Assembly: GCA_023544645.1 (NCBI GenBank)
Contig: JAMJFO010000010.1
Span: 1-64,000, forward strand
Origin: Desulfobulbaceae bacterium
GTDB lineage: Bacteria; Desulfobacterota; Desulfobulbia; Desulfobulbales; Desulfobulbaceae
Direction: 5' to 3'
Length of the DNA stretch: 64,000 bases
Part shown: positions 10,823 to 51,999 of the stretch, piece by piece
Layout of the letters: every line of letters starts with the position of its first letter
Position numbering within the stretch: position 1 is the stretch's first letter
Notes under the pieces: model-generated
The model's input: the letters and a program-made list of their open reading frames with translations, nothing else
What the model was told of the DNA's origin: nothing
The model's database searches: none
Made by a program: the position numbers and the translations under genes

Positions 10823-10833
10823 ATGATTATCTT

Positions 10834-32609: not shown

Positions 32610-33635
32610 ATGAAGATACTTCTATGCGAAACAACACCCCGGATAAACGGGGAATTTGAACAAGCTTTAGCGGAATCAGGTCACACTGTCGCGACAGTGG
32701 TTACAGCAGCCGATGATATTGTTCATGCTGTCTCCGTCACCCAACCTGAACTTGTCTTTGTTTCATTGAAGATGCTCGGGCAGTATTGTTTTGAAATAAT
32801 ACAGCGGATTCACCATGTCGCCCACGTGCCGGTGATAATCAAGACTGCCCGGAGAACCGATGCACTTTTGCGCCAGGCATCCGCATCAGGAGCCGGCTGG
32901 GTACTGGAAACGCCCGCTGATGCCGCAGCCATTGACCTGGCCATACGCATTGCCCTCCTCCGGCATCAGGACTTTCTTCAACTCCGGAAATTACGGGAAA
33001 GCACAGAAAGAGCTGTCAGGGAATTTTTGCACAGGATAAAAAACGACCTGGCAGTAATCGCCTCGCTCATGCATCTTCAGGCCGGCTGCAGCAGCCATCC
33101 GGAAACGGCCGGGGCCATCCTTGAGAGCGCTGACAGGGTAAGAGTTGTCGCGGCGCTGTATGATATTATCCGTTCGTCGGAATACAAAGACGCCCTTCGT
33201 CTCGATGATTACTTTGAGCTGTTGATCAGCAAACTGTGCCACGGAACAGCCCGGGAAAAGGGTTATTCGCTGGAGGTTTCCACGGAATACATCATTGCCG
33301 ACGGCATGACTTCGCTCAATTGCGGCCTCCTTGTTAATGAACTTGTCAGCAATGCCTTGAAATATGCCTCTCCGGACGATGAAAAAAATATCCTGATCCA
33401 GGTTACCGTTAAAAAAACAGCGGGCAACGGCTCCATTGAAATATGCGTCAACGACAATGGAGCAGGCCTGCCCCGGAATATTGAACCGGCCCGGGCAGCC
33501 ACCTTCGGCTTCCAGCTGATTTCCCTCCTGGTTGATCAACTGAAGGGAAATATGAAAATCTCCCGATCCGGAGGAACGGAATTCATCCTTACCTTCCCAA
33601 ATCCGCAATTAAATGATGTGATAGCGGAAAAGTGA
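32610..33635 (+). CDS. Sensor histidine kinase (HisKA_2) with a degenerate receiver
   Basis: This 341-residue soluble kinase has an N-terminal receiver-like domain (1-115) that lacks the phospho-acceptor: the Asp position reads FVSLKML and the Lys position ETPAD, so it cannot be a normal receiver. The phospho-acceptor His is His141 in EFLHRIKNDLAVIASLMHLQ, the HisKA_2 signature. HATPase_c follows (NCGLLVNELVSNALKYA N box, VNDNGAGLP G1 box). I chose ATG 32610 because MKILLCETT begins the fold; an upstream TTG is not supported. The next gene encodes a NarL-type regulator, its likely partner. Confidence 0.88.
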   Translation: MKILLCETTPRINGEFEQALAESGHTVATVVTAADDIVHAVSVTQPELVFVSLKMLGQYCFEIIQRIHHVAHVPVIIKTARRTDALLRQASASGAGWVLETPADAAAIDLAIRIALLRHQDFLQLRKLRESTERAVREFLHRIKNDLAVIASLMHLQAGCSSHPETAGAILESADRVRVVAALYDIIRSSEYKDALRLDDYFELLISKLCHGTAREKGYSLEVSTEYIIADGMTSLNCGLLVNELVSNALKYASPDDEKNILIQVTVKKTAGNGSIEICVNDNGAGLPRNIEPARAATFGFQLISLLVDQLKGNMKISRSGGTEFILTFPNPQLNDVIAEK

Positions 33636-33721
33636 CGGATCATGTATTATCTCGACTCAAATACAGCCCGCCGGCTGACCAATGAACTGCATTGCTGAAG
33701 GGCAGAACAGCCATACGTGCC

Positions 33722-34354
33722 ATGGGATATAAAATACTCATCGTTGATGATCATGTTCTGTTGCGCAAAGGCATCAGGAGCATCCTTGAAAATTCACCCT
33801 CCATCGAATTCGTTGCGGAAGCCGGTGACGGATTCGAGGCCATCGAAGCGGCCAGGGATCAGGAATTCGACCTGGTCCTTCTGGATATCTCCATGCCCAA
33901 TAAGGATGGAATCGATACGCTGAAACAGCTCAAATATGAATTTCCCCGGCTGAAGGTTCTGATGCTCTCGATGTATCCCGAGGAAAGCTATGCCATCCGG
34001 GCGCTCAGGGCAGGAGCATCCGGCTATCTGGAAAAAGACTGCCGGCCCGAACAGCTTGAACAGGCAATCAACGATGTCATCACCCTGGGCAAGTACATCT
34101 CGCCGACCATTGTTCTGGCCCTTGCCAATACCATAGACTCCACCTCCAAGGCGTCCTCCTACGATCTGCTATCCGACCGGGAAGTACAGGTCATGCGTCT
34201 TCTGGCATCGGCAAATACGGTCAGCGAAATAGCGGAGCAGCTGCACATCAGCGCCAAAACGGTGACCACGTACAAATCACGGATCCTGGAAAAACTGAAC
34301 CTCAAAAATACCGCCGAGCTCATCCGCTACGCCCTGGAAAAGAAGGTCTGTTAA
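33722..34354 (+). CDS. NarL/LuxR-type response regulator
   Basis: This 210-residue response regulator has a receiver with acidic pair DD (LIVDDHVLLRKGI), phospho-acceptor Asp55 (LVLLDISMPNKDG) and Lys (YLEKDC), followed by a LuxR-type HTH (LLSDREVQVMRLLASANTVSEIAEQLHISAKTVTTYKSRILEKLNL). It is the likely target of the adjacent HisKA_2 kinase. The start ATG 33722 fits the domain edge. A palindrome TGTAGGGA-TT-TCCCTACA lies 33 bp after the stop. Confidence 0.92.
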   Translation: MGYKILIVDDHVLLRKGIRSILENSPSIEFVAEAGDGFEAIEAARDQEFDLVLLDISMPNKDGIDTLKQLKYEFPRLKVLMLSMYPEESYAIRALRAGASGYLEKDCRPEQLEQAINDVITLGKYISPTIVLALANTIDSTSKASSYDLLSDREVQVMRLLASANTVSEIAEQLHISAKTVTTYKSRILEKLNLKNTAELIRYALEKKVC

Positions 34355-34368
34355 CCCGCATTTCTCAC
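34355..34368. repeat. Solo copy of the foldback-element end
   Basis: CCCGCATTTCTCAC directly after the stop codon of the NarL-type gene is identical over 14 bases to the end of the 176-bp foldback element at 11067. Only this end is present; no matching inverted arm is visible nearby. It may be a remnant or a coincidence. Confidence 0.35.
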
Positions 34369-34386
34369 CTCTTCCCGCATCCCCCA

Positions 34387-34404
34387 TGTAGGGATTTCCC
34401 TACA
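34387..34404. promoter_or_regulatory. Perfect palindrome, candidate operator
   Basis: TGTAGGGA (34387-34394) and TCCCTACA (34397-34404) are perfect inverted arms with a 2-bp centre. It lies 157 bp before the next gene of the cluster and just after a NarL/LuxR-type regulator gene. Symmetric sites of this size suit a dimeric regulator of that family. A second pair, AGTGG (34448-34452) and CCACT (34460-34464), follows. Which protein binds is unknown. Confidence 0.45.
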
Positions 34405-34560
34405 CACTGCAGGCGCAAGCTGTCAAAACAAACCCGTAATCCCCGATAGTGGAATTTTGCCACTTTGCTATGCTTGCTTCCAATGAAAGCATTTCACCCA
34501 TTGCACTCGTGCCGTGGATGGAATCAGCGGAATTGACAAGCAAATCTTCCCGGGGTCATC

Positions 34561-35289: not shown

Positions 35290-35404
35290 GTCAATGGTCC
35301 TCAAAGAACAGGAAACGCTGACCACCATGTTCATAGTGCGCAATATTGCCCCTGATGCTGTCTCTTGCGGAAAAAATTCCCTGGAGCAAGGGATTAATGG
35401 ATAA
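35267..35404 (+). CDS. Possible 45-residue coupling ORF
   Basis: A short frame (begins MNKNKHDKSMVLKEQE, ends LEQGING) starts inside the last 23 bases of the membrane-sensor gene, after a GAGAGAAG site, and ends overlapping the kinase start by 8 bases. No family is recognised. The overlaps on both sides suggest a translational-coupling role or a genuine small protein, but it could also be chance. Confidence 0.35.
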   Translation: MNKNKHDKSMVLKEQETLTTMFIVRNIAPDAVSCGKNSLEQGING

Positions 35405-38400
35405 CTCTTTCATGCTGCTTACCGTTATTTTTCTCACCCTGTCAGGGATGACAGCCGTTGTTTTGAAACGTCACCGCGACAGCAATGTGGTCCTTCTTCC
35501 ACAGCGCCTGAGGAAAAGAGTGCATCCCCTGTTTATAGGGGTGATCGTTTTCCTGCTGCAGTTAACCCTGATGATGACCCTGCATCCCTTCTGCAAGGAC
35601 TGGTCATCGCCCATGTCGGGCACACTTGAGGCAGCGCTGTTTCTGCTGCTCATCACGCCCATACTGTATTATCTGCTGGTCGTACCCCTTGTTGAGGTGA
35701 TTGCGGACAAACGGGAGATGGAGAAATCACTGCGCCAAAGCGAGGAGTTCTTTAGAACAACCTTTTATGACGCTCCTCTTGGCGCGGCCATCGTAAATCT
35801 GGACGGCACAATCTCCAATGCCAACGCCAAACTGGCCGATTTTCTTGGCTATGCGGTGGAAGAACTTTCAGGCAGGCATATTACCGACCTTGTTCATCCG
35901 GACTGCAGGGAGGGGTGCCGGGAGCAAATAGCCAAGCTGATATCCGGAGAGAACCGGGAATATAATAAGGATAAACAGTTTGTCACCAAAGAAGGCCGTT
36001 TCTCGTGGGGATACCTGTCGGTAAAAGTTATCACCGACCATTCCGACATGCCGCAATACCTCCTGCCGATGATTGAAGATATCAATGCCAGGAAAGACAT
36101 GGAGCAGGAGTTGACATTTGCCTGGGAAGACTGGCAGGAAACCTTTGCCCATATTCCGGACGGTGTCGTCATTCTCAACCAAGAATTTGAAATTGTCCGG
36201 GCCAATCCCGCTTTCAAAAAACTGCTGAACACGGAAAACGAACGAGGGAGAAAATTCTACAATATCATTCCCTGCAAACGGCGCCGTACCTGTGAACATT
36301 ATGCGCTTTTCAAACAATCCACTTCCGGCAGCGGGACTCTCCCTTATTTTCCCTACACCTATGAATGTTACAACGACGTTCTGGAGAAATTTCTGGAACT
36401 GACTGTGAATACCATCCGTTCCGACGATGCACGGTCATCCGGCTATGTCTTTGTTGTACGTGATGTAACTGAACGAAAAATGGCGGATCAGCGGCTCCGT
36501 TTGCTTGAAAAAGCTGTCAACACCACGCGGACAGGCGTAACCTTCATGGATACGGACAATATTATCCGCTACATCAACCCTGCCGATGCAGCAATGCATG
36601 GATATAGACCGGAAGAACTGCTGGGACAGCACATACGCATTATTGCGCCGTATAAATATATCAAAACCCTTGATCGTGACAAGATGGCATCTCTCACAAC
36701 CTGGTCCAGGGAAATCAAGAATCTGCGCAAAGACGGCAGCGAGTTTCCGGTCTCCCTGGTGTCGGATGTGGTCCGGGATGAATCAGGGGAGGTGCTGGGA
36801 ATCATCACCACGTGTGAGGATATCACCGAGCGTATACAAATAGAAGAAGAGCTGCGCAAACTGTCCAGGGCAATCGAGCAGAGCCCGGTTTCCGTTGTCA
36901 TTACCAACCAGCAGGGCGCCATAGAATATGTCAATCCCGCTTTCTGCGCCAATACCGGATACAGTTTTGCCGAAGCGATTGGACAGAATCCGCGAATCCT
37001 CAAGTCAGGCAACCAGCCGGCGGAAGTGTACCAGGACCTGTGGCAAACTATTTCAACGGGGAATATCTGGCGGGGAGAGCTTTCCAACAAAACCCGCGCC
37101 GGGGAAATTTTCTGGGAAAACGTTGCTATTTCGCCGATCAAGGACCATGACGGAAATATAACAAGCTATATCGCGGTCAAGGAAAACATCACCGAGCAGA
37201 AAAAAGCCAAGGATGCAATACTCAACAGCGAAGCCAGGCTGCGCTCCATCATGGACGGGGTTACCGACAGCCTGATTACCGTCGATGAAAACGGCGTTAT
37301 TGAATCCTGCAATCCGGCAACGGAAAAAATATTCGGGTATCCGGTTGATGAACTGGTCGGGGAAAATGTTCAACTCCTTCTTCCGCAGGTATATCACAGG
37401 AGATTGGATAAATTTTTTCAGCAGCGCCCGGATACGGCTGTTACCATCGGCAACACGCTCACCTTCCGGGGGCGGCGCAAAGACGGAAATTCTTTTCCCC
37501 TGTCCTTGTCACTGGGCATGGCACAACTCGCCGACCGCACCCTTTTTGCTGCAACAATAAGAGATATCAGTGAAATAAAAGAGAATCAGCGGGCGCTTCT
37601 TGAAGCAAAGGCCAATGCCGAGATGGCAAACATGGCCAAGAGTGACTTCCTGGCCCGAATGAGTCACGAGATCCGCACACCGATGAATGCCATCATCGGC
37701 ATGAGCAATCTTGTCAGAATGACCTCGCTTGGTTCGCAGCAGGTACATTATGTCAACAATATTTACAGCGCCTCCAAGAGTCTTTTGCGAATAATTAATG
37801 ACATCCTTGATTTCTCCAAAATCGAAGCAGGTCTTCTCTCCCTGGAGTCCATCGGATTCAGGCTCGATGATCTTTTCAACAACCTGAAGAATATTGTCGG
37901 CCTTCCCGCCTATGACAAGGGGATCGAGTTGATGTTCGATCTTGACGACGCGCTGCCCGAAATTCTCATTGGCGATCCCCTCAGGGTTGAACAGGTACTG
38001 ATCAACCTTGTCAACAATGCGGTCAAATTCACCAGTGATGGCCAGATAATCGTCAAGGCCCGGGCAATATCCGTTGAGGCGGAAAAAGCGGTCATAGAAT
38101 TCACTGTTTCGGACACCGGAATCGGCATGGATCCGGCACAGGTCGAGTCACTCTTTCTCCCCTTCACCCAGGCTGACGGTTCCATCAGCAGGCAATACGG
38201 CGGGACCGGTCTCGGCCTGACCATATGTAAACGGCTGGTGGAGATGATGGGAGGGGAAATCCGGGTAACCAGTGTAATCGACAAGGGAAGTACTTTCAAT
38301 TTCACCCTGGAACTGCCCTGCCAGGAAAACATCTCCGCAACAAACCGCAGCCTCCATGGCGTAAAAGCAATTGTCATTGATGCAAACCCTGAATCACGGC

Positions 38401-39572
38401 GACTGCTGGATCACTTCCTCAAAAGCGCTGATATACGCACGGTCTCTGCCGGCGCCATTGAAGAAGCTGATGAAGCATTTAGTGACAATGGCGGCGGCGG
38501 GACAAAACAGCCGGACCTCCTGGTTGTCGACGCCACTTCTTCCGCCTTCAGGGTAACACCTGTTTATGACTGGCTGAAAGATCATCCAAAGGTCAAAACC
38601 ATATTCATTACCGGCCTGGCCATCAACCCGGAATTAAAAGAAAATAAAACTGTATACGCCGCATACCTGAGTAAACCGGTTATCAAGTCCCAACTCCTTG
38701 ATACCGTACAGAGGGTAATGCAATTGTCCACGCCCAATGAAAAACTGATCATCGGCCCGGCTGAAAACATGGATACAATGCAGATCATTGGCGGCAGGAA
38801 GGTTCTGCTTGCCGAGGATAATTCGATAAACCAGCTCTATGCGGTCAAAATCCTGGAAAATATAGGCCTGGACGTGCATACCGTAAAAAACGGCAGGGAA
38901 GCCCTGGAAGCGGTTTGCGCCAACAAATACGATCTGGTCCTCATGGATATGGAAATGCCGGTCATGGACGGCCTGAAAGCAACGGCGGAAATCCGGCGTA
39001 TTGAGGGATGCCGGGATCTGCCCATTGTCGCGATGACCGCTCATGCCATGGAGGAACACAAACAGCTGGCATTGAATTCCGGCATGAATGACTACATCTC
39101 CAAGCCGATAGAAATGAAGGATCTGAACCAGGTCCTTCAAAAATGGCTGGCCCAGGACAATCAGGAACTGAACGGAATCACCCACGGCGGCACAGGAAAA
39201 ACCGACACCAGACCTGATCATTTTCCAGGCATTGATTTTACCGGCGGCCTGTCAAGACTGGCCGGAGACAGAGATCTTTACCTGCAGGTGCTCTCTTTTT
39301 TTTATGAAACCTATTCCCGGGCCGCAGGAACACTTTCCACTACTTTGCGGCAGGGGAAGAAAAAGGATGCCATTATTTTTGTTCATTCCATGAACGGCGC
39401 TGCCGGAAACATCGGAGCGCACCAATTGTGTGTGACCGGAAAAGAAATTGAATTGGTTCTCTCGCACAGCAAGGACAACCTGTCGATGGAACTCATTCAA
39501 CGTTTTGAAAATGAATTGGCACGGGTTCTGGGCGGCCTGGCAGCCCTGTCCGGGGAAGAACCTGAAAAATGA
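35397..39572 (+). CDS. Hybrid histidine kinase: 3 TM, 5 PAS, HisKA, HATPase, two receivers, HPt
   Basis: This 1391-residue sensor has three membrane helices in the first 105 residues. Five PAS domains (about 115-750) follow, several ending in the D-I-T-E-R/Q linker (VRDVTERK, CEDITERI, KENITEQK). HisKA has His757 in [15 protein letters not shown]. HATPase has the N box VLINLVNNAVKF, and SDTGIGMD and GGTGLGLTICK. The first receiver-like domain (about 1000-1110) keeps an Asp (LLVVDAT) and Lys (LSKPV). The second receiver has Asp1184 (LVLMDMEMP). HPt has His1330 in FVHSMNGAAGN. The start ATG 35397 is preceded by GGAG/AGGG. The built-in HPt can hand phosphate to separate receivers; the HD-GYP and PP2C regulators downstream are candidates. 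Confidence 0.93.
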   Translation: MDNSFMLLTVIFLTLSGMTAVVLKRHRDSNVVLLPQRLRKRVHPLFIGVIVFLLQLTLMMTLHPFCKDWSSPMSGTLEAALFLLLITPILYYLLVVPLVEVIADKREMEKSLRQSEEFFRTTFYDAPLGAAIVNLDGTISNANAKLADFLGYAVEELSGRHITDLVHPDCREGCREQIAKLISGENREYNKDKQFVTKEGRFSWGYLSVKVITDHSDMPQYLLPMIEDINARKDMEQELTFAWEDWQETFAHIPDGVVILNQEFEIVRANPAFKKLLNTENERGRKFYNIIPCKRRRTCEHYALFKQSTSGSGTLPYFPYTYECYNDVLEKFLELTVNTIRSDDARSSGYVFVVRDVTERKMADQRLRLLEKAVNTTRTGVTFMDTDNIIRYINPADAAMHGYRPEELLGQHIRIIAPYKYIKTLDRDKMASLTTWSREIKNLRKDGSEFPVSLVSDVVRDESGEVLGIITTCEDITERIQIEEELRKLSRAIEQSPVSVVITNQQGAIEYVNPAFCANTGYSFAEAIGQNPRILKSGNQPAEVYQDLWQTISTGNIWRGELSNKTRAGEIFWENVAISPIKDHDGNITSYIAVKENITEQKKAKDAILNSEARLRSIMDGVTDSLITVDENGVIESCNPATEKIFGYPVDELVGENVQLLLPQVYHRRLDKFFQQRPDTAVTIGNTLTFRGRRKDGNSFPLSLSLGMAQLADRTLFAATIRDISEIKENQRALLEAKANAEMANMAKSDFLARMSHEIRTPMNAIIGMSNLVRMTSLGSQQVHYVNNIYSASKSLLRIINDILDFSKIEAGLLSLESIGFRLDDLFNNLKNIVGLPAYDKGIELMFDLDDALPEILIGDPLRVEQVLINLVNNAVKFTSDGQIIVKARAISVEAEKAVIEFTVSDTGIGMDPAQVESLFLPFTQADGSISRQYGGTGLGLTICKRLVEMMGGEIRVTSVIDKGSTFNFTLELPCQENISATNRSLHGVKAIVIDANPESRRLLDHFLKSADIRTVSAGAIEEADEAFSDNGGGGTKQPDLLVVDATSSAFRVTPVYDWLKDHPKVKTIFITGLAINPELKENKTVYAAYLSKPVIKSQLLDTVQRVMQLSTPNEKLIIGPAENMDTMQIIGGRKVLLAEDNSINQLYAVKILENIGLDVHTVKNGREALEAVCANKYDLVLMDMEMPVMDGLKATAEIRRIEGCRDLPIVAMTAHAMEEHKQLALNSGMNDYISKPIEMKDLNQVLQKWLAQDNQELNGITHGGTGKTDTRPDHFPGIDFTGGLSRLAGDRDLYLQVLSFFYETYSRAAGTLSTTLRQGKKKDAIIFVHSMNGAAGNIGAHQLCVTGKEIELVLSHSKDNLSMELIQRFENELARVLGGLAALSGEEPEK

Positions 39573-40783
39573 AAGGAAAGACATCGATGGAAACAATACA
39601 GCGCGAGACCGGAGACCAGGGGCTGGCGAATCCCGGAAATACCATGACCCTTGAGCAGCAGGATCTGTCCGGCAGCAGAATTCTTATAGTTGACGACACC
39701 AGGATCAACCTCCAGATACTCGAGGGACTCCTGAAGAAATCATATAACGTATACACCGCAATGGACGGCCAAAAAGGCCTGGAACTTGCCCGGGAAACCA
39801 ATCCCGACCTCATACTTCTCGATGTCATGATGCCGGGAATGGATGGCTTTGAAATGTGCCGGCTTTTGAAAGAGGATGACCGGACAGAACAGATCCCGGT
39901 AATCTTTTTGACGTCTCTTTGCGAAAGCGAGCACAAGAGCAAGGGCTTCAGCCTCGGTGCGGTTGACTACATCCTGAAGCCCTTTGATGCCCTGGAGGTG
40001 GAGGCGCGGATCAGAACGCATCTCTCCCTGCGCAGAACCACTCTGGAGCTTCGGCACCAGAACATCATCCTTGAACAGAAAGTCCGGGAAAGAACCAGGG
40101 AAATTGTCCTGACCCAGGAGGCGACCATAGAAAGCCTTGCCAACCTTGCTGAATACCGCGACCCGGAAACCGGCGGACATATCCTGCGAACAAAAACATA
40201 TATCCGGGTCCTTGCTTCACAGCTGCGGTCCCATTCCAGATTCAGGGATTTATTAAGCGACAACTACATCGATCTGCTCGAAAAATGCGCGCCGCTTCAT
40301 GACATCGGTAAGGTAGGCGTCCCTGACCTGATACTGCAGAAACCCGGCCGACTCTCCCGAGAAGAAATGGAAATAATGAAAAAGCATACCTTTTTCGGTC
40401 ATAATTCCATCATGGCCGCCCAGCAGAAAATAGAAATGGACGTCCCTTTTCTGATGGTTGCCGGCGAGATAGCTCTTACCCACCATGAACGATGGGACGG
40501 GACAGGCTATCCCTATGGGCTGGAAGAAAATGATATCCCTGTGTCAGGCCGCCTGATGGCCATTGCCGACGTGTACGACGCCCTGATCAGTAAAAGGGTC
40601 TATAAGCCGCCGTTCTCCCATGCCAAGGCAGTTGAAATCATCGCAAAAGGAGATGGCCGGACTCTGCCCAAACACTTTGATCCGGCAATATTAGAGGCAT
40701 TTCTCCAGGTGGAAAAAAATTTTTATCAGGCAGCGCTCAAGTATGCCGACAGTGATGAAGAGCGCCATATCCTGGTCGGCTGA
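39569..40783 (+). CDS. Response regulator with HD-GYP cyclic-di-GMP phosphodiesterase output
   Basis: This 404-residue two-domain protein has a receiver (about 30-155) with VDDTRINLQ and phospho-acceptor in LILLDVMMPGMDG, then the HD-GYP domain (about 190-375). The latter has HDIGKVGVPDLILQKPG, HHERWDGTGYP (the GYP motif) and AIADVYDALISKRVYK. HD-GYP enzymes hydrolyse cyclic-di-GMP to pGpG or GMP. The start overlaps the kinase stop by 4 bp (ATGA), which implies coupled translation. ATG 39587 is an alternative start. It lowers cyclic-di-GMP when phosphorylated, if it follows the usual behaviour of such regulators. Confidence 0.92.
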   Translation: MKGKTSMETIQRETGDQGLANPGNTMTLEQQDLSGSRILIVDDTRINLQILEGLLKKSYNVYTAMDGQKGLELARETNPDLILLDVMMPGMDGFEMCRLLKEDDRTEQIPVIFLTSLCESEHKSKGFSLGAVDYILKPFDALEVEARIRTHLSLRRTTLELRHQNIILEQKVRERTREIVLTQEATIESLANLAEYRDPETGGHILRTKTYIRVLASQLRSHSRFRDLLSDNYIDLLEKCAPLHDIGKVGVPDLILQKPGRLSREEMEIMKKHTFFGHNSIMAAQQKIEMDVPFLMVAGEIALTHHERWDGTGYPYGLEENDIPVSGRLMAIADVYDALISKRVYKPPFSHAKAVEIIAKGDGRTLPKHFDPAILEAFLQVEKNFYQAALKYADSDEERHILVG

Positions 40784-40862
40784 GCCCATGGCGCTGGAAA
40801 AAATAACGGCAGACGGCATGGACATCCGGAAACGACAGCAATTTATCCGGAGCTGATTGATC

Positions 40863-42227
40863 ATGATCAAAATAACGCCACAGGAAATGGTTGACTTCTC
40901 ACGATACATCAACGATATATCAGGCATATCCGTCATGGAGAGCAAGAGATATCTGCTGGAAAACAGGCTGCAGTCACTGTTAACAGAACAGGGTTGCAAT
41001 TCCTTTCATGAACTGCTGTGCAAGGCAAAAAACAACCATAATTCCACCCTGCGTTGCAAAATAATTGACGCCATCGCCACCAATGAGACCTATTTCTTCA
41101 GGGACCAGGCCCCCTTTGAAATCCTGAAACATAAAATAATTCCGGACATCCTTGACCGGAACAAGGGACCGACTTCTTCGGACAATGCGCGGATACGCAT
41201 CTGGTGCGCCGCATGTTCAACCGGGCAGGAAGTGTACAGCGTTATCATGTCAATCCTGGAAATACTTCCTGATGCCGGAAAATACGATATCCGTGTGCTG
41301 GGAACCGACATCTCCAACAGGGTTATCAGCCAGGCAAGCTCGGGCCGCTATTCGGCGCATGAGATAGAACGGGGACTGCCGGCTGACCTGCGTAACAAAT
41401 ATTTTGTGGAGGAAAACGGTTCCTGGCGGATACAGGACGAGGTCCGCATTATGGCCGAGTTCAAACGGATGAATCTCCTTGAACCGTTTCACGGTACAGG
41501 TCTATTTGATATTATTTTCTGCCGAAACGTATCCATCTATTTTTCCGAAGAAAACAAATCAAAACTGTTCAAGAAACTCGCCGGAATCCTTGAAAAAGAC
41601 GGATACCTGATCGTCGGCGGTTCGGAGAGCCTGTGCGATGTGGCCCCTCAATTCAGCCACCAGCGGCATTTGAAAGGGATTTTCTATCAACGCAAAGATG
41701 CGTCCCGGCGTTCGGTGAAAAAAAATGCCCAGGCGCCTGCTTACAGCCCGATTGTTGCTGTAAAAAAGACCACTTTGGCGGCAGGATTGTCCGCCCGACC
41801 GAAAAACAACCGTTCTCTGCCGGCTGTTGCCGGACCAGGAAAGAAAAAGGATGCGGCAGCCGGAGCAGATTTATTCAGGCAGCAGAACCGTCCCGGATTT
41901 CCCGGGCAGGATTCGGGCAGCCGCCCTGCGGCCACTCCCCCTGAAAATGCCGGCGCGAAATCCATTTCCACCCTTTTTACCGGCCACGAGGATATTGCCG
42001 CGGGTGAACCGCAAACCCTGCTGGGAGCCATTCAGGGCAGGCGGGAAAAAATACACTCCCCGGCGCAGTGGAACACGGTGAAAAATGATGAACAACAAAA
42101 GTCCCTCCTGCAAATTATCCAGGAAAATATTGAAAAGATGGAACAGAACGCATCCATAACACAAAAAAAAATGAGTTTGGAATCCTGCACCTTGCCGGAC
42201 AGCGGAAATCCAGACACTGAGAAATGA
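40863..42227 (+). CDS. cheR: CheR-type methyltransferase with a long disordered tail
   Basis: This 454-residue protein has the CheR N-terminal helical domain (about 1-75) and an S-adenosylmethionine-dependent methyltransferase domain (about 76-275) with ATNETYFFRD, WCAACSTGQEVYSV, LGTDISNRVISQASSGRYS and DIIFCRNVSIYF. It methylates glutamates of chemoreceptors. The last 170 residues are low-complexity basic and Pro/Ala-rich with no TPR or other fold, unusual for CheR. GGAG precedes ATG 40863. It precedes the PP2C regulator with a 4-bp overlap. Confidence 0.92.
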   Translation: MIKITPQEMVDFSRYINDISGISVMESKRYLLENRLQSLLTEQGCNSFHELLCKAKNNHNSTLRCKIIDAIATNETYFFRDQAPFEILKHKIIPDILDRNKGPTSSDNARIRIWCAACSTGQEVYSVIMSILEILPDAGKYDIRVLGTDISNRVISQASSGRYSAHEIERGLPADLRNKYFVEENGSWRIQDEVRIMAEFKRMNLLEPFHGTGLFDIIFCRNVSIYFSEENKSKLFKKLAGILEKDGYLIVGGSESLCDVAPQFSHQRHLKGIFYQRKDASRRSVKKNAQAPAYSPIVAVKKTTLAAGLSARPKNNRSLPAVAGPGKKKDAAAGADLFRQQNRPGFPGQDSGSRPAATPPENAGAKSISTLFTGHEDIAAGEPQTLLGAIQGRREKIHSPAQWNTVKNDEQQKSLLQIIQENIEKMEQNASITQKKMSLESCTLPDSGNPDTEK

Positions 42228-43351: not shown

Positions 43352-43442
43352 CCAGATTCGGAGAGGTGTTCGCGGAAGGCGGCAGGGAAAAAAAAATGGG
43401 TCATGCTGCCATACCGTCAATCCCCAATTGAGAAGGAACCGG

Positions 43443-43868
43443 ATGTATCTGCTGTGCACGAAACAAACAAATGAATATTTCATGGTATTTTCCGCCTCCT
43501 TTGAAAATATCAACCTTGCCTGCTCCCGTATTGATGACTTTCTGCAAAGTCTCCGGCTGGAAAAATATGGATTTGCCGTCAAACTGGGAGCACGTGAGAT
43601 TTTAAATAATGCGGTAATTCACGGTTCCAAAAACAACCAGGCAAGAAAAATACGGTTCAAGATTACATTGCACGGCAACCGGTTATTTCTAAAGGCCAGG
43701 GATGAAGGAACCGGCTACGTATCTTCAAGGGCAGGCCGGGAATCCGGCAGGGTTCTTCAGGAATCAGGCCGCGGCCTCGCCATTTTGCATAAATACTTTG
43801 ATAGCGTGTCATTCAATGAATCCGGCAACGAAATCAAACTGGAACTGAATACCACCGGTTCACCATGA
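43443..43868 (+). CDS. RsbW-like anti-sigma factor / serine kinase
   Basis: A 141-residue GHKL-fold protein with the N box LGAREILNNAVIHGSKN (about residues 50-65), the G1 box DEGTGY and the G2 box SGRGLAILHKYFD. These are the ATP-binding motifs of RsbW/SpoIIAB kinases, which phosphorylate a STAS partner and bind a sigma factor. The start ATG 43443 has AAGGA 6 nt upstream. The DNA between the PP2C gene and this ATG (43352-43442) holds no gene. No sigma factor lies in the window. Confidence 0.85.
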   Translation: MYLLCTKQTNEYFMVFSASFENINLACSRIDDFLQSLRLEKYGFAVKLGAREILNNAVIHGSKNNQARKIRFKITLHGNRLFLKARDEGTGYVSSRAGRESGRVLQESGRGLAILHKYFDSVSFNESGNEIKLELNTTGSP

Positions 43869-43931
43869 ATGAAGAGAACCAGGCGGATGCGTATCACAAG
43901 GGCTTGGGGATTTTTATTGGAGAGAAAAAAT

Positions 43932-44243
43932 ATGAGCAACGCAAAAGAGACGCAAGAAATGATCACCATAAAACCGGGCAGGGACATTGTCAGTTCAATG
44001 GTGCTGGAATTCAGGGAGGAGCTCAGGGAGGTAGTTGACCGGAAAGATCTCCTGCTCACCCTGGACCTTGACGGGGTGCAAATGATCGACTCCATGGGAC
44101 TGGGGGTTCTGATCGGCGCCCACAACTCCCTGGCGAAAAGAAATGCCAGGCTCGAATTGACCAATATCTGCGATGATATCTTCAACCTGATGAAAAACAT
44201 GCGCCTGGACAAGCATTTTTCCATCAGGCAGAGCGCAAAGTAA
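43932..44243 (+). CDS. STAS-domain anti-anti-sigma factor (RsbV/SpoIIAA-like)
   Basis: A 103-residue single STAS domain. The phosphorylatable serine lies in MIDSMGLGVLIGAHNSL, as in RsbV/SpoIIAA, followed by the helix LTNICDDIFNLMKNMRLDKHF. Its phosphorylation would be set by the RsbW-like kinase upstream and removed by the PP2C regulator. GGAGAG precedes ATG 43932. Together 42224-44243 encode a complete phosphatase-kinase-antagonist module. Confidence 0.9.
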   Translation: MSNAKETQEMITIKPGRDIVSSMVLEFREELREVVDRKDLLLTLDLDGVQMIDSMGLGVLIGAHNSLAKRNARLELTNICDDIFNLMKNMRLDKHFSIRQSAK

Positions 44244-44347
44244 TGTCGGGAAAAAATCGGCACACAGCAATGGAGAACTGCTTCATTGGGCAGCCTGTCA
44301 TGCTGGTCCGTCGGCAGGACAAATATTTATGCAACCGTCGAAAATGA
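44243..44347 (+). CDS. Possible 34-residue ORF in the STAS-cheA gap
   Basis: ATG 44243 overlaps the STAS stop codon (TAATG). The frame MSGKNRHTAMENCFIGQPVM, continuing to NRRK, ends at 44347, 24 bp before cheA. No family is recognised and there is no independent evidence that it is expressed. Confidence 0.2.
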   Translation: MSGKNRHTAMENCFIGQPVMLVRRQDKYLCNRRK

Positions 44348-44371
44348 GAACAGCCACCTGGAGCGCCTGTC

Positions 44372-47300
44372 ATGTCTGATGATTTATCCCTTGATGATAT
44401 CCTGATAATGTATGTCCAGGAATCAAAGGAACACCTGGAAAACATAGAAAACGACCTCCTTAACCTTGAACGCGAGGGTATCGACAGTGACGACGAATCT
44501 ATAAACAAGATGTTCCGGGCGGCCCATTCAATAAAGGGCGGCAGCGGATTCTGGGGCCTGGACACCATAAAAAACCTGTCGCACAAAACGGAAAATGTCC
44601 TGGATATGATCCGTAAACGGCAAATGGAACCTTCTCCCCATGTTGTCAGCATCATTCTCAGGGCCTTTGACCGCCTGGGGGAACTCCTCAATGATCCGCA
44701 TAACAGCAACACCATGGACATTTCCGCCGAGGCCGCGGACCTGGAGAATCTGACCGCCGGCAGCCTGCCGGAAGGGGAAAAAAAATCCGTCACCCGCAAG
44801 GTTGTCCTCGACCACCCTGCTGTGCCGGTAGAATTCGAGGTGTCGGAGTTTGACGCGCGTATCGGCAGTCAGGACGGCCGCAACCTGTATATCCTTGAAT
44901 TTGACCTGCTCAAGGATGTACATCGCCGGAAAAAATCCCCCCTGGACTTCCTCAACACCTTGAATGAAAACGGCACCATCGTTGATATCATATATGACCT
45001 GTCGGTCATGGGAGATCTTGACAGCGATACAATATTTTCACGTTTCCCGGTCTTTGTTCTCTTCAGCACAATAATAGAATCCGATCTGATCGGAACGCTC
45101 ATGGGGCTGGACCCGAAATATGTGCATCCGGTCAGCGATGAGGCCGGAAACGGAGAAACCGACAGTGAAACTCAGGAACACGCGTCTTCACCAAAGCAAG
45201 AACCGGGGGAAGATATCCCCCGGAAAAAACAATCCCCGGACCAGGCTCCCCCCCGCTCCTCTGCCAGGGGGCTGAAGGTCCAGTCCGATTCCCTGCGTGT
45301 CCAGGTCCATGTGCTGGACAAGCTGATCAACCGGGCCGGCGAACTCGTTCTGGCCCGCAACCAGCTCCTCCAGTCTTTTGCCGGAGGGGACAAATCTTCC
45401 CTGAAAGCGGCATGCCAGCGGATTGATGCGATCACCTCTGAACTGCAGGAATCAATAATGCTGACCCGCATGCAGCCGATCAATAACATTTTCAGTAAAT
45501 TTCCGCGGGTGATCAGGGACATGTCACAACAGCTGGGCAAGCGGATTGAGCTGCGGATAGAAGGCAGGGAGGTGGAGGTCGACAAGACTATCATAGAGGG
45601 ATTGAGCGATCCCCTCACCCACCTGGTGCGCAACTCCGTCGACCACGGCATAGAGATGCCGGAAGAACGACAGAAAAACGGTAAACCCGAGACAGGGGTA
45701 ATCAGCTTAAAGGCGTTTCATGAGTCCGGGCAGATCATCATTGAAATTTCCGACGACGGCAGGGGGATGGACGGCAGCCACATTGGCGCCAGAGCACTTG
45801 AAAAAGGGTTGATCAGCGCGGAATATCTGCAGACCATGACAACGGATAAGGAAAAACTCAATCTGATAATGCTGCCGGGATTCACCACCGCCGAATCGAT
45901 CACCGACATCTCGGGACGCGGGGTGGGGATGGATGTGGTCAAGACCAACCTTGATAAAATGGGCGGTTACCTCGAGTTTGATTCCCAACCCGGCAAAGGG
46001 TCCATGGTCAGGGTAAAACTGCCCCTGACCCTGGCGATCATTCCAAGCCTGCTGGTTTCTTCAAGCGGTGAGCGCTTTGCCCTGCCCCAGGTCAATGTCG
46101 GCGAACTGCTTCGAATCCCTGCCGCCGAGGTCAGGGAGAAGGTGAAAAAGGTGAGCGGCGCCGATGTCCTTATCCTGCGCGGAGAGCTCATCCCATTGCT
46201 GCAGCTGAACAATCTCCTCGATCTGCAGCGGATCTATTTTGATCCCCGCACCGGCGAGTTCAGACCTGACAGGAGGGGAAAACTCAGCGATGAAAGACTC
46301 CTGCAGGATACGGTTTCCTGTCAGGCAGATGCGGGAAAGGGAGAAAACATCCCGGCATACTCGTCAATGCCCCAAGATAGACGAAATCATCCCCGGAGCG
46401 ATGTCAATATCGTCGTGCTCCAGGCTGGTTTTCTCCGTTATGCGCTGGTGGTCGATGATGTGCATGACACTGTGGAAATCGTTGTCAAGCCCCTGGGACG
46501 TCATATCAACCAATGCCCCTTTTACGCCGGGGCCACAATAATGGGAGACGGCCGGGTAGCCCTGATCCTTGATGTGCCGGGACTTGGCCGCCTGGCCAGG
46601 CTCAAGGAGACAACCGATCCCGTCCGGGCAATCCAACACGAAGCAGAAGAGACAGGAAGGGGAACAGGCGGAGTTAACCAGTCGCTTCTGATTTTTCATA
46701 ACGGTCCGGGAGAATACTGCGGAGCGCCTCTCCACCAGGTTCTGAGAGTCGAGCAGATACGGGTCGATGCCATCGAAATGACAAGCAACCGGAAAGTGAT
46801 CAGATACCGGGGCGGAGTTCTGTCGGTATTTGCCCTTGAGGAAGTTGCCGAGGTTGAAAAAATAGCACAATGCAGCGAACTGGTGGTGATAATCTTCGAG
46901 GTCGCAGGCCGTGAGGTAGGTCTGCTGGCGGTCCCGCCCCTGGATGTAATTGAACAGCGCCTTGTTATCGATGAAAAAACGCTCAGACAGCCGGGCATTT
47001 GCGGCTCCACCATTATCGGCGACAGAACCACCATGATCGTGGACATTGTTGAATTCATCCGGACCGTCAATCCGTCATGGTTTGAACAATCCGCCCAGGC
47101 CCGGGTCCCGGGGGATGGTGTGCCGGGTAAAGGCACAATCCTCCTGGTAGAGGATTCAACCTTTTTCCGCACCCAGGTGAAAAGGTTTATCGAGGATGAA
47201 GGATTCTCGGTACGGGAAGCTGAAAACGGCAAAGAGGCCTGGAAAATGCTGGCAGGGTCGCCGGGCAATATTGAAATGGTCATAACCGATATTGAAATGC

Positions 47301-47554
47301 CGGAGATGGATGGCTTTGAGCTTCTCGAGCAGATCAAGAATGATAATCGCTTCATCCATCTCCCGGTCATTGTGCTGACAACCCTGGCAGAGGAAGCGGA
47401 GATTGCCAGGGGAAAGAATCTGGGCGCGGCAGCCTATCTCATCAAACTGGACAGGGAGAGGCTTGTCCGGAACATCAAAGAGATATTTAAAGAAAACCAG
47501 ACATACAGGCAACAGGAAGATCCTGTGGCCGGTGAGGCTACCAACAGGGAATGA
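44372..47554 (+). CDS. cheA: CheA histidine kinase with two CheW-like domains and a C-terminal receiver
   Basis: This 1060-residue kinase has the P1 HPt with His52 (FRAAHSIKGGSGFWG). A second variable domain follows (about 150-260). The dimerisation helices (VQVHVLDKLINRAGELVLARNQLLQ, about 310-335) precede HATPase (THLVRNSVDHGIEMPE, ISDDGRGMDG, DISGRGVGMDVVK). Two CheW-like domains come next, the first about 550-740 and the second about 765-905. A receiver ends it (about 920-1045; LLVEDSTFFRTQV, MVITDIEMPEMDG). The REC-terminated, double-CheW form is typical of non-flagellar chemosensory systems. The start ATG follows an intergenic gap after STAS. It overlaps cheW by 4 bp. Confidence 0.93.
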   Translation: MSDDLSLDDILIMYVQESKEHLENIENDLLNLEREGIDSDDESINKMFRAAHSIKGGSGFWGLDTIKNLSHKTENVLDMIRKRQMEPSPHVVSIILRAFDRLGELLNDPHNSNTMDISAEAADLENLTAGSLPEGEKKSVTRKVVLDHPAVPVEFEVSEFDARIGSQDGRNLYILEFDLLKDVHRRKKSPLDFLNTLNENGTIVDIIYDLSVMGDLDSDTIFSRFPVFVLFSTIIESDLIGTLMGLDPKYVHPVSDEAGNGETDSETQEHASSPKQEPGEDIPRKKQSPDQAPPRSSARGLKVQSDSLRVQVHVLDKLINRAGELVLARNQLLQSFAGGDKSSLKAACQRIDAITSELQESIMLTRMQPINNIFSKFPRVIRDMSQQLGKRIELRIEGREVEVDKTIIEGLSDPLTHLVRNSVDHGIEMPEERQKNGKPETGVISLKAFHESGQIIIEISDDGRGMDGSHIGARALEKGLISAEYLQTMTTDKEKLNLIMLPGFTTAESITDISGRGVGMDVVKTNLDKMGGYLEFDSQPGKGSMVRVKLPLTLAIIPSLLVSSSGERFALPQVNVGELLRIPAAEVREKVKKVSGADVLILRGELIPLLQLNNLLDLQRIYFDPRTGEFRPDRRGKLSDERLLQDTVSCQADAGKGENIPAYSSMPQDRRNHPRSDVNIVVLQAGFLRYALVVDDVHDTVEIVVKPLGRHINQCPFYAGATIMGDGRVALILDVPGLGRLARLKETTDPVRAIQHEAEETGRGTGGVNQSLLIFHNGPGEYCGAPLHQVLRVEQIRVDAIEMTSNRKVIRYRGGVLSVFALEEVAEVEKIAQCSELVVIIFEVAGREVGLLAVPPLDVIEQRLVIDEKTLRQPGICGSTIIGDRTTMIVDIVEFIRTVNPSWFEQSAQARVPGDGVPGKGTILLVEDSTFFRTQVKRFIEDEGFSVREAENGKEAWKMLAGSPGNIEMVITDIEMPEMDGFELLEQIKNDNRFIHLPVIVLTTLAEEAEIARGKNLGAAAYLIKLDRERLVRNIKEIFKENQTYRQQEDPVAGEATNRE

Positions 47555-48033
47555 GAATGGAACAGACAAATCGTAACAAGAAGGAGGGAGCCGGCGGAAC
47601 CAAACGCTTCGCAACCTTTTTCATAGATGAAACCCTCCTCGGGGTGGATATCCGGATGGTCCGGGAAATCAATGAAGAGCCTGCAGTCACCAGGGTGCCG
47701 CTGGCCACTAAGTATGTCAAAGGCATAATGAACCTGCGGGGGCAGATCATCACCATAATCGACCTGCGCAGGAAAATGGGTTTTGCCTCCTCCCCACAAA
47801 CTGAACCCTGCAACGGTGTGGTGATTGTCAACTGGCACAATGAACAAATCGGCCTCATGTTTGACAGGATCGGTGACGTGATCGAATCGCCTGAAATCGA
47901 TATTGAAAGACCTCCTTCAAATATCAGCGGAGTAAATGGTGAACTCTTTCAGGGAGTTCTCCGTACGGATAAGAATAAAATTGTTGCCGTCCTGGATATC
48001 GATTCGGTACTGGCAGACGAAACCTCATCATAA
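47551..48033 (+). CDS. cheW: CheW coupling protein
   Basis: A 160-residue CheW that bridges receptor tips and CheA. It has FATFFIDETLLGVDIRMVREI, YVKGIMNLRGQIITIIDLRRKMG (the NLRG core motif) and a matching second subdomain (FDRIGDVIESPEIDIERPPSNI). The start overlaps the cheA stop by 4 bp, so CheA and CheW are probably translated together. Confidence 0.93.
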   Translation: MRMEQTNRNKKEGAGGTKRFATFFIDETLLGVDIRMVREINEEPAVTRVPLATKYVKGIMNLRGQIITIIDLRRKMGFASSPQTEPCNGVVIVNWHNEQIGLMFDRIGDVIESPEIDIERPPSNISGVNGELFQGVLRTDKNKIVAVLDIDSVLADETSS

Positions 48034-48112
48034 CAGGCTGTTGCATATATAATTTTCAATAACTTAAACTTTATTTACAAAAATATACGATTTTTAATAC
48101 ATGGAGGGAATC

Positions 48113-50413
48113 ATGCAGCTGACAGCGGTGAAAAATTGGAAAATCGGGACGAAAATTGGTCTGGGATTCGGCCTCGTACTGTTGCTTTTACTTATTGTAA
48201 TGGGAATTTACCACACAACCGTCCTCAATGTTATCAATAACTATGACGATTTGATTTCAAGTGATATTGCCATTGGTCAGCTCGCCCGGGATATTCAGTC
48301 TGAAATGCTTGAATGCCGACGCAATGAAAAGGATTTTCTGCTCCGCAAGGATAAAAAATACCTCAGCCTGCTCATGGATACCAGCAACAGGCTTATCAGC
48401 CATGCCCAAACCTTAGGCGATATCGCCAGGGACCGGGGGTATGACGTCATAACAAACAGTGCCGAAGACATTGTCAACAAGATCACCACATACCGGGATA
48501 TTTTTGCCCGGGTTGTTGAGTCTTCCGAAAAAATGGGTCTTGACCATTTGTCGGGACACCAGGGAATGTTCAGAAATGCCGCCCTGAAACTGGAGGAGGA
48601 TTTGCGTGAACATGCGGTGGATGACCTTTATTTCAACCTGCTCATGCTGCGGCGCTGGGAAAAGGATTATCTACGGACCGGAAGTGACAGCTACAAGGAG
48701 CGTCTGACAGGCGCTATCGCAGCCTATAAAAAAGCCCTGTCTCTGAGCGAGAGCGAACCAACGGCAAAAAAGACCCAGGTTGATGCCATCGTTCGTTACG
48801 AAACTGCTGCTGTCGGGCTGATAAACAATTACAGCGATCAAGCCGGGAAAAACCAACTCTACGAGGAGATGCGAAAAGAGGCGCACATCATCGAGGATGC
48901 GCTGCAGAACACTTTGATTCCGCAGGCAGAAATTCTTGTTCAGGATATACGGCGACAGGAAAAGGATTACCTGCAGCGCCACGATCCGGAAAAAATCAAA
49001 CTCGTCCACGGGGCGATACAGCGGCTCAAAGAGCAGGCCGGCAACTCCGGCATTCATCAGGAACATATAACCGCGGTTGTCGACAAACTGACCCAATATG
49101 AACAGGCCTTTCTCAACCTGGTGAGCGCGTACGATGCCATGACCGCGGACATTGAAACAATGCGTAATGTCGTCCACCAGGTGGAGCCCGCGGTGGCGGC
49201 CATCGTTACCCTGGCAGGGGAAAATGCGTCGGCAATGGATCTGCAGACAGATGAGGGAGCGTCCTTTCGTCTCAATCTTTCCCTCATGATCGGCATCCTG
49301 TCTGTTGTTTTCGGCAGCGGCTTTGCCTTTTTCATCGTCCGTTCCATAACCGTGCCGATAAACAGGGCTGTTGATTTTTCCTCAAAAATCGCCGAGGGAG
49401 ATCTGACCCACAGCCTCAATATCGACCAGGAGGATGAAGTGGGTATCCTGACTGTCACCTTGAACAATATGGCTGCCACCCTGGCACAGATGATCAGGAA
49501 AATAAGCGATACGGTCAGTTCCATCAGCGCCTCTTCGGCGGAAATGGCTTCTGTTGCCGATCAGATGGCCTCGGCATCGGAAACCGCGGTGGTGAAATCA
49601 CACGGCGTTGCAACAGCTGCCGAAGAAATGAATCAGAATATGATTTCCGTAGCTTCAGCCATGGATCAGGCCTCGACAAATGTTGCCACGGTTGCCGCAT
49701 CCATCGAGGAAATGAACACCAGCATCGCCGGCATCGTCCAGAATACCGAGAAAGGCAAGGCCGTAGCGGAGAAAACCGTAATTCAGGCTCAGCAGACTTC
49801 CGAACAGGTCAATCAGCTTGGCCGGGACGCCAACGAGATCAATGAAGTTACGGAAACCATCAAGGCCATCTCGGACAAGACAAATCTGCTGGCCCTGAAT
49901 GCCACCATAGAAGCAGCGCGGGCCGGAGATGCGGGCAAAGGGTTTGCCGTTGTGGCAAATGAGATCAAGGAGCTTGCCCAGCAAACGGCGGATGCAACCG
50001 GTGATATAGCCAGAAAGCTTTCAGGCATTCAGACATCGACCATCAATACCGTCTCCGATATCACTGAGATCACGGATGCTATTAACGAAATGAACAGTTT
50101 TATCAGTATAATTTCTGATGCGGTTGATCAACAGAGCGATGCCACCGCCGAAATCACTGAAAATATCACCCAGGCTGCCCAAGGATTGAATGAAATCAAC
50201 ACCAATACCAGTCAGACCGCGGAGGCGGCTGCGCTCGTTGCCAAGGATATCGGCGATGTCAGCGAAACCGCCAACGAAACCAGCAATTCCGGGGCCCAGG
50301 TGCAGCAGAGCGCCAACGAACTGAGTAAAATGGCCGAGCAATTGAAACTCATGGTCAACAAATTCAAGATTACCAATGACCATTCTCCGGAAATCTGGAC
50401 CGACCGACAATAG
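48113..50413 (+). CDS. Methyl-accepting chemotaxis protein with an HBM-type sensor domain
   Basis: This 766-residue receptor has an N-terminal membrane helix ([21 protein letters not shown]), a periplasmic helical-bimodular-like domain (about 40-390), a second membrane helix ([18 protein letters not shown]), HAMP and a long signalling domain. Its tip [20 protein letters not shown] continues [20 protein letters not shown]. The sensor carries three copies of a motif RRxEKDYLxR ([30 protein letters not shown]), characteristic of HBM domains. The C-terminus WTDRQ lacks the CheR-docking pentapeptide. GGAGG lies 6 nt before ATG 48113. It is the only receptor in the cluster. Confidence 0.92.
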
Positions 50414-50416
50414 TAT

Positions 50417-51535
50417 ATGCCTGTTGCCGAAATTAATAAGGATTTTCAGTTGAAAATAAAAGCGCTTGTCGTGGACGACACGATATTTTACCGGAAAATC
50501 ATCAGCGAAATTCTGGCATCATTTCCCTTTGTCGAAGTGGTTGGCACCGCGAACAACGGCGAGATAGCCATGTCGCGGATCCGCCTGCTGAAACCGGATC
50601 TGCTGACCCTCGATGTCGAAATGCCGGTAATGAACGGTCTTTCGGTGCTGCAGGAGATCCGGCGGCAGAACCTTCCCATCGACTGCCTGATGCTGAGCAG
50701 CAAGACTTTGCAAGGATGCGAGATCACCATGCAGGCCCTGGAGCTCGGCGCCTTTGACTTCATCACCAAGCCTGATGATATCTCTCCCAGGGCCAATCTG
50801 CAGATGCTGACCAGGGAACTGCGCAGGAAATTAACCATATTTCATGAACGCCTGAAAATGCTGGACCACCGAAGGAACAAGCCCCTGGGCTGTCCTTCGT
50901 CATCTAAACGGCCGGCAGGGAGAGTTGCTATTGCCGAGCCTGCCGCCGCCGGGAAAAGAAAAGAAAAATCCCACGCGGTTGCCATCGGTATTTCCACGGG
51001 CGGTCCGTACGCGTTGGGAAGAGTGCTGCCATCCTTTCCCGCTGACCTAGGCGTGCCGATTTTTCTCGTTCAGCACATGCCTCCCCTGTTCACCGAATCA
51101 CTGGCCAACAGCTTGAACAATAAATGCAGGCTCACCGTCAAAGAAGCGGTTGACGGGGAACAGGTAAGAAAAAATCACGTCTACGTTGCTCCGGGCGGGA
51201 AACAGATGAAGGTTGCAAGCGGTCTTGACCATACCAAGTTGATACGGATTACCGATGCGCCCCCCGAAAACAACTGCCGGCCGTCAGTCGACTATCTGTT
51301 CCGTTCCGTGGCCAGGGAGTACGGCTCCAAGGCCACCTGTGTAGTCATGACCGGAATGGGGACTGACGGGAAATCAGGCCTTGCGGTTGCCCGGGCGAGC
51401 GGCGCGGTGAACATCGCCCAGAACGAGGAAACCTGTGTGGTTTACGGAATGCCCAAGGCGGCCATTGACTCCGGTTTGATTAATATTGTCGCCCCGCTTG
51501 AAAAAATAGCCGAAGCAATTCTCAAAACAGTGTAG
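50417..51535 (+). CDS. cheB: CheB methylesterase response regulator
   Basis: This 372-residue protein has a receiver (about 14-130; VVDDTIFYRKII, LLTLDVEMPVMNG, TKPDD) and a methylesterase/deamidase domain (about 180-372). The catalytic triad is visible: Ser in IGISTGGPYALG, His in LVQHMPPLFTESLA and Asp in MTGMGTDGKSG. It removes methyl groups added by CheR and is usually activated by CheA phosphorylation. It starts 3 bp after the receptor gene. Confidence 0.94.
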   Translation: MPVAEINKDFQLKIKALVVDDTIFYRKIISEILASFPFVEVVGTANNGEIAMSRIRLLKPDLLTLDVEMPVMNGLSVLQEIRRQNLPIDCLMLSSKTLQGCEITMQALELGAFDFITKPDDISPRANLQMLTRELRRKLTIFHERLKMLDHRRNKPLGCPSSSKRPAGRVAIAEPAAAGKRKEKSHAVAIGISTGGPYALGRVLPSFPADLGVPIFLVQHMPPLFTESLANSLNNKCRLTVKEAVDGEQVRKNHVYVAPGGKQMKVASGLDHTKLIRITDAPPENNCRPSVDYLFRSVAREYGSKATCVVMTGMGTDGKSGLAVARASGAVNIAQNEETCVVYGMPKAAIDSGLINIVAPLEKIAEAILKTV

Positions 51536-51597
51536 CCCTTGATTTTCGCCGCACAGGAATTCAGAACATACACGCTCATCGACTACAGGAGATTATG

Positions 51598-51999
51598 ATG
51601 AAAATACTTATAGTTGAAGATGAATTCACCAGCCGGGTTATCATGCAGAAACTTCTTCTGCCCTATGGTGAAGCGCATGTTGCCGTAAACGGTCAGGAGG
51701 CGGTTGAAGTATTTTCACGGGCCCTGGCCGACAACGAGCCCTATGATCTTATCTGCCTGGACATCATGATGTCGGGGATGGATGGACTGCAGGTTCTCAA
51801 GGAGATCAGAAAGCTTGAGGGTGAGAATGGTATTGTCGGTCCGTACTGGGTAAAAATTATCATGACAACGTCGGTGGATGAACCGAAGAGCATCCTGGAA
51901 GCCTTTAATTCTCAATGCGAAGCATATCTGATCAAACCGATTGAACGCCGAAAGTTCATTGAACAACTGCGGAAATTCGATTTCATCCTGAATCCGTAA
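51598..51999 (+). CDS. Single-domain response regulator (CheY-like)
   Basis: A 133-residue receiver with acidic pair (IVEDEFTSRVIMQ), phospho-acceptor Asp in DLICLDIMMSGMDGL, Thr (IMTTS) and Lys (YLIKPI). MSG replaces the usual MPG after the acceptor. The start ATG 51598 suits the AGGAG site better than ATG 51595. With CheA-REC next to it, this may be the diffusible output or a phosphate sink. No flagellar motor gene is near. Confidence 0.9.
   Translation: MKILIVEDEFTSRVIMQKLLLPYGEAHVAVNGQEAVEVFSRALADNEPYDLICLDIMMSGMDGLQVLKEIRKLEGENGIVGPYWVKIIMTTSVDEPKSILEAFNSQCEAYLIKPIERRKFIEQLRKFDFILNP

Follow-up and report, generated by a model that had tools for sequence, protein, structure and literature searches.

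Chemosensory and partner-switch genes in a conserved cluster of a Desulfobulbaceae bacterium, with a divergent P2 domain in CheA

The window analysed here is a 64,000-nt stretch of contig JAMJFO010000010.1 (GCA_023544645.1, Desulfobulbaceae bacterium), and open reading frames (ORFs) and Pfam matches confirmed within it, at 32610-51999, a plus-strand cluster of chemosensory (che) and partner-switch (rsb) genes. At its core are genes for a REC-PP2C serine phosphatase of the SpoIIE/RsbU type (42224..43351), an RsbW/SpoIIAB-like serine kinase and predicted anti-sigma protein (43443..43868), a STAS anti-sigma antagonist (43932..44243), CheA (44372..47554) and CheW (47551..48033, kept beside CheA in other loci). 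Homologues and the upstream sequence make 43443 and 43932 the most likely starts of the RsbW-like and STAS genes, rather than those of the longest ORFs. CheA is composed of HPt, P2X, P3, P4, a split CheW, a second CheW and REC domains, where P2X (44813..45139) denotes a divergent P2/CheY-binding domain. The entire cluster is found in the same order in one other species of the genus (genome G015, locus L119), with a CheA that is 71% identical. Around the core are a CheR methyltransferase with a long C-terminal tail (40857..42227; close to the core in L119, L179, L180 and L231), a membrane chemoreceptor (methyl-accepting chemotaxis protein, MCP) with a large N-terminal sensory region (48101..50413; 73% identical in L119), a CheB methylesterase with REC (50417..51535; kept near the core) and a single-domain receiver (51595..51999; kept in L119), all assigned by Pfam. 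All domains listed in an initial annotation of the window were recovered, except for the HBM ligand domain of the MCP, for which Pfam gave only a sub-threshold 4HB match.

The partner-switch proteins retain their catalytic residues. Among 15 aligned relatives, the metal-binding aspartates and receiver phospho-acceptor of REC-PP2C, the residues of the N, G1 and G2 boxes in the RsbW-like kinase and an Asp-Ser pair in the STAS protein are invariant, the last of which corresponds to D57-S58 of Bacillus subtilis SpoIIAA. The phosphatase matches the SpoIIE family in Pfam and the kinase matches HATPase_c_2, as well as TIGR01925 at a score below the cut-off of that model. By sequence, the nearest solved relatives of the kinase are SpoIIAB and RsbW, and those of the STAS protein are TM1442, SpoIIAA and RsbV. 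With PP2C aspartates, GHKL kinase boxes and a serine at the S58 position each in place, the three proteins are predicted to form a partner switch. CheA has the HPt histidine motif, the kinase boxes and the C-terminal receiver aspartate, and the motifs of CheR, CheB and two further cluster proteins described below, an HD-GYP protein (HD and HHExxDGxGYP) and a hybrid kinase, are also intact.

The order REC-PP2C, RsbW-like kinase, STAS, CheA (42224-47554) recurs in 16 further loci from five other families of the phylum (f13, f15, f51, f53 and f80, in the codes of the search tool), at 40–54% identity. In L178-L190 (f13, f15) the four genes are in the same order with CheW close by, and with an intervening MCP gene in L181 and L188, while in L229 and L231 (f51, f80) the core is accompanied by MCP and CheW, joined in L231 by CheB and CheR. 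The order is also found in L274 (f53). Gene fusions occur between PP2C and RsbW in L178, which is the CrsR/HsbR architecture, between RsbW and STAS in L228, L293 and L294, and between all three in L230. The complete partner switch of L228 and L230 is contained in one or two polypeptides: REC-PP2C-RsbW-STAS is a single 637-residue protein in L230 (9417-11330), and L228 has an RsbW-STAS fusion (10456-11214), each followed by an HPt-P2X-STAS protein with no CheA nearby. The possibility, raised by the initial annotation, that the synteny is unique to this genome is refuted by L119 and the 16 further loci. Since the core order recurs in so many other genomes the cluster is more than a chance arrangement, and the comparison supports the reading of the che and rsb genes as one conserved module.

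Upstream of cheR are genes for a hybrid histidine kinase with five PAS, HisKA, HATPase, REC and HPt domains (35346..39572), the terminal HPt scoring barely above the Pfam cut-off, and a REC-HD-GYP protein that is a predicted cyclic-di-GMP phosphodiesterase (39569..40783). The pair was not seen at the core in any of the loci beyond L119. Cyclic-di-GMP hydrolysis would therefore be a lineage-specific accessory, and the two proteins, being limited to the same-genus relative, were rejected as parts of the conserved system. Most members of the window's own family carry an rsb-free CheA of about 50% identity, with CheW, CheB, CheR, MCP and a receiver, near the genes for ribosomal S6 and FKBP. The genome itself has a second double-CheW and REC CheA (L137:9185-11836, contig C68), with CheW, CheB, CheR, MCP and receivers and with neither P2X nor STAS, and this type is also present in three same-genus genomes (L138-L140). 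A prevalent rsb-free CheA, the lack of a close REC-PP2C in five of the seven same-genus genomes sampled, and the MCP genes that can separate rsb genes from cheA (L181, L188) would all fit a simpler view, in which the che and rsb genes are mere neighbours, the array serves chemotaxis or controls pili, and the switch takes its input from some other kinase, such as the PAS hybrid kinase. This is judged improbable, given an order kept over five families at the identities above, the co-occurrence of P2X and STAS, and a genome devoid of flagellin (see below for both).

The P2X domain, defined from an alignment of 22 sequences, lies between HPt and P3 and was missed both by the initial annotation and by Pfam: HMMER assigned it to no Pfam family, and a sequence search of the PDB gave no credible chain. 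The rsb-linked CheAs match the CheA profile over its full length, which is in part a product of their own use in building it. In the rsb-free CheAs of the family, model positions 130-260 are missing and a Pro/Glu/Ala-rich linker takes their place, a shortfall that the make-up of the profile does not explain. Profile-profile comparison of P2X with P2/CheY-binding domains, a set made up of PF07194 hits plus one CheA segment judged to be P2 by eye, gave 93.7% probability (E 1.9e-7), whereas seven unrelated control domains reached at most 2.2%. An earlier comparison with few sequences was weak (35%), and it was the larger sets that gave the higher value. At one place in a distant CheA, both the P2X and the P2 models match weakly. 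A single-sequence AlphaFold2 model of the region had a mean pLDDT (predicted local distance difference test) of 42 and was not used. These comparisons relate P2X to the P2 domains that dock response regulators, and it is predicted to bind a receiver.

A phylum-wide search detected P2X in 48 of 395 genomes. Where P2X-CheA loci had enough flanking sequence, a STAS gene was found within 2.5 kb in 16 of 21, and PP2C or RsbW in seven; for CheAs without P2X, found by CheA similarity, the corresponding numbers were 2/97 and 0/97 (P2X-STAS association, Fisher p ~1e-13, uncorrected for kinship). CheAs of the same clade that lack P2X have no rsb genes, and a scan of genome contigs for CheA returned mostly distant CheAs without P2X. 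Outside of CheA, the domain occurs in HPt-P2X proteins of L225-L230, which end in a STAS-like region and adjoin PP2C-RsbW-STAS. By these counts STAS is the closest partner of P2X, and HPt-P2X-STAS fusion proteins exist (L225, L228, L230), so that P2X might dock the STAS protein or its complex instead of the PP2C receiver, with STAS either an array component or freed when CheA is active, and with the role of PP2C and RsbW limited to setting the phosphorylation of STAS. Such an arrangement appears unlikely, as the kin of P2X are receiver-binding domains (PMC10782961), the receiver of PP2C needs a phosphodonor, and PP2C adjoins STAS and CheA in most full loci.

P2X is also found in HPt-P2X-CheW proteins (L295:7367-8770, L296:7079-8461, L297:7684-9069, L298:7350-8732, L299:145-1536 and L303:6993-8333). 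In L296-L298 this protein adjoins a second CheA, which has a P2-like segment of its own, along with STAS, CheR, CheB, REC-PP2C and REC-RsbW, in a layout reminiscent of stage 1 of the F7 chemosensory class. A minimal STAS-CheA pair, in which the STAS gene directly precedes that of a P2X-CheA, is seen in L280-L286, and L285 and L286 have an HPt gene in addition.

In a tree of the kinase-to-C-terminus part of CheA, the family's P2X-less CheAs fall inside the P2X group, and a single P2X clade was rejected (approximately unbiased test, p ~2e-49), so that joint loss, or joint gain, of P2X and the rsb genes has probably occurred on more than one occasion. Counts of changes on the tree do not separate gain from loss, and the quick-mode support values are to be read with care. 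The outgroup was formed by alphaproteobacterial two-CheW CheAs, and the tree carries no class labels.

The initial annotation regarded the cluster as an undescribed system, with HptB-HsbR-HsbA of Pseudomonas as a partial parallel, but chemosensory clusters coupled to partner switches have been reported before, and the closest analogue is Che1-CrsR-CrsA. The che1 locus of Shewanella oneidensis encodes CheA, CheY, CheW, CheR, CheD, CheB, two MCPs, CrsR and CrsA, of which the last two control RpoS by partner switching, and according to the authors of that study Che1 could take part (PMC9855816). Both loci combine CheA, CheW, CheR, CheB and MCPs with a REC-PP2C, a kinase and a STAS protein, and Che1 is thought to control RpoS, not chemotaxis (PMC9855816, PMC6482189). 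However, CrsR is one fused protein whereas PP2C and RsbW are separate in the window (and fused in L178), Che1, described as an F7 array in that work, includes CheD, CheY and Aer2 while the window CheA has two CheW domains, REC and P2X, and no RpoS equivalog was named in the window's genome. In the F7 class, two genes for anti-sigma antagonists and a gene for a serine phosphatase are part of the stage-1 clusters, and the stage 1-2 clusters of Ortega et al. (2020) resemble the window cluster in that chemosensory genes are grouped with those for anti-sigma factor antagonists and a serine phosphatase (PMC7184735). The full F7 gene set (cheY-cheA-cheW, an aer2-like receptor, cheR, cheD, cheB, STAS and phosphatase; PMC7184735) was not found in the window cluster, which differs in gene order and content, has no cheD, gave no positive test for an aer2-like receptor, and has a separate RsbW gene and a different CheA architecture. 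The counterpart in Pseudomonas is HsbR-HsbA, whose partners are RpoS, FlgM and HsbD, and in the P. aeruginosa HptB-HsbR-HsbA pathway a REC-PP2C-kinase and a STAS protein, whose phospho-serine controls those partners, are likewise fed by an HPt (PMC6482189). In that pathway, however, the input comes from hybrid kinases via HptB and not from an array, and FlgM, HsbD and RpoS were not found near the window cluster.

Two CheW domains in one CheA are almost restricted to class F5, and in Desulfobacteraceae the first CheW has a 50-residue insertion (PMC10782961); the first CheW of the window CheA is similarly split by about 49 residues. The CheW-CheW-REC arrangement is that of the F5-class CheAs of Rhodospirillum, Azospirillum and Azorhizobium, but the F5 systems studied in the same paper control chemotaxis, and no partner switch is mentioned there (PMC10782961). 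P2X is absent from the alphaproteobacterial CheAs compared here. No STAS, RsbW or PP2C gene is known from the Che3 cluster of Rhodospirillum centenum. That cluster is described as encoding a Che-like cascade with hybrid kinases (CheA3-CheS3) that controls development and not motility (PMC3868531). Another linkage of chemosensory and partner-switch genes is present in a Nitrospira sp. (L065:19169-22442), where CheA, CheW-REC, CheB, CheR and MCP are followed by two STAS, REC-PP2C and REC-RsbW, without P2X. With Che1-CrsRA and the F7 clusters known, and a window CheA that differs from theirs, what is new here is the same kind of coupling on an F5-like CheA architecture with a distinctive P2. It is tentatively suggested, with a little less than even confidence, that P2X (in CheA, in stand-alone HPt-P2X-STAS and in HPt-P2X-CheW proteins) is a distinct P2 subtype, a dedicated coupler of chemosensory kinases to the partner switch, and that, with array and switch paired on an F5-like CheA lineage as well as on F7, the link between arrays and anti-sigma-type switches has arisen on more than one occasion.

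The cluster may be read, with reasonable though far from full confidence, as a chemosensory array that has the partner switch as its output, either in place of a motor or in addition to one. The array would consist of receptors, CheW and CheA, with CheR and CheB adapting the receptors, and CheA would autophosphorylate on its own HPt. The divergent P2 would hold the receiver of the neighbouring REC-PP2C, allowing efficient phosphorylation, and the active PP2C would strip the phosphate from the conserved STAS serine, whereupon the dephosphorylated STAS protein could bind the RsbW-like kinase, causing it to free a client that is most likely a sigma factor or some other regulator. With PP2C off, the kinase would re-phosphorylate STAS and recapture the client. 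The receiver at the CheA end and the single-domain receiver are likely phosphate sinks or adaptation parts, and the HD-GYP and PAS hybrid kinase a genus-level addition that may lower cyclic-di-GMP. While the phosphotransfers, the contacts between the proteins, the nature of the client and whether the output is positive or negative are all predicted from sequence, this mechanism is favoured by the conserved core order, the invariant residues, the fusions, the relation of P2X to P2, the tracking of P2X with STAS, the lack of flagellin and the CrsR-CrsA analogue. From the pathway proposed in the initial annotation, the part leading from CheA through REC-PP2C and STAS to RsbW is retained as the best reading of a conserved core, and the cyclic-di-GMP part, whose HD-GYP is shared only with the same-genus relative, is not.

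Several observations weigh against this mechanism. The PP2C and RsbW genes are separated by 91 bp and are not coupled by overlap. In L280-L286 a STAS gene accompanies the P2X-CheA while PP2C and RsbW are missing from the neighbourhood, so that P2X may not serve PP2C. The tree offers only three phylogenetically independent pairs; about two fit joint gain or loss and none contradicts it, which is suggestive but not significant. Sigma-70 region-2 genes are absent from the window's contig, and hence from the cluster and its vicinity, as the initial annotation had noted for sigma factor and flagellar genes; those of the genome encode RpoD, a second RpoD-like protein, RpoH and one ECF (extracytoplasmic function) protein, and none is specific to switch-bearing species. 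The second RpoD-like sigma was rejected as a switch-specific client because almost every genome tested has it, whether or not the switch is there too. That it is near-universal in the order, that no sigma factor is near, that a REC-HD-GYP lies within the cluster, and that HsbA binds the diguanylate cyclase HsbD (PMC6482189) make it conceivable, if rather doubtful, that the client is not a sigma factor, and that STAS or the RsbW-like protein controls a cyclic-di-GMP enzyme or other protein, as in Pseudomonas HsbA-HsbD or SiaC-SiaD. On the other hand, the nearest kin of the RsbW-like protein are anti-sigma kinases (SpoIIAB and RsbW), and the HD-GYP is not conserved with the module. No flagellin gene was found anywhere in the genome, which is 99.92% complete, so the array is unlikely to steer flagella, and the cluster probably controls gene expression or lifestyle, not swimming.

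Among the remaining features, a REC-LuxR response regulator (33692..34354, +; Pfam) has an 80% identical copy upstream of the L119 cluster, and is a flanking gene or possibly a cluster member. The L119 locus includes this regulator along with the hybrid kinase, HD-GYP, CheR, CheB and the single receiver, and beyond them a minus-strand GAF kinase, which corresponds to the GAF-PAS hybrid kinase with two receivers (52118-55648, minus strand) that faces the cluster end in the window. Immediately before the hybrid kinase, 34561-35289 encodes a predicted membrane protein of 242 residues, which has no Pfam or NCBIfam match and was not found at L119. The 4-bp overlaps reported in the initial annotation are real: hybrid kinase/HD-GYP (39569-39572), CheR/PP2C (42224-42227) and CheA/CheW (47551-47554). 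The GC content of the cluster does not contrast with its surroundings, and as promoter and terminator scans came close to shuffled expectation, no operon boundary is claimed.

Chemosensory arrays have been treated mainly as steering devices. If the proposed mechanism is correct, a conserved, array-fed switch would give non-flagellate bacteria an adapting, memory-bearing input into gene expression, and P2X would provide a sequence marker for finding array-switch modules.

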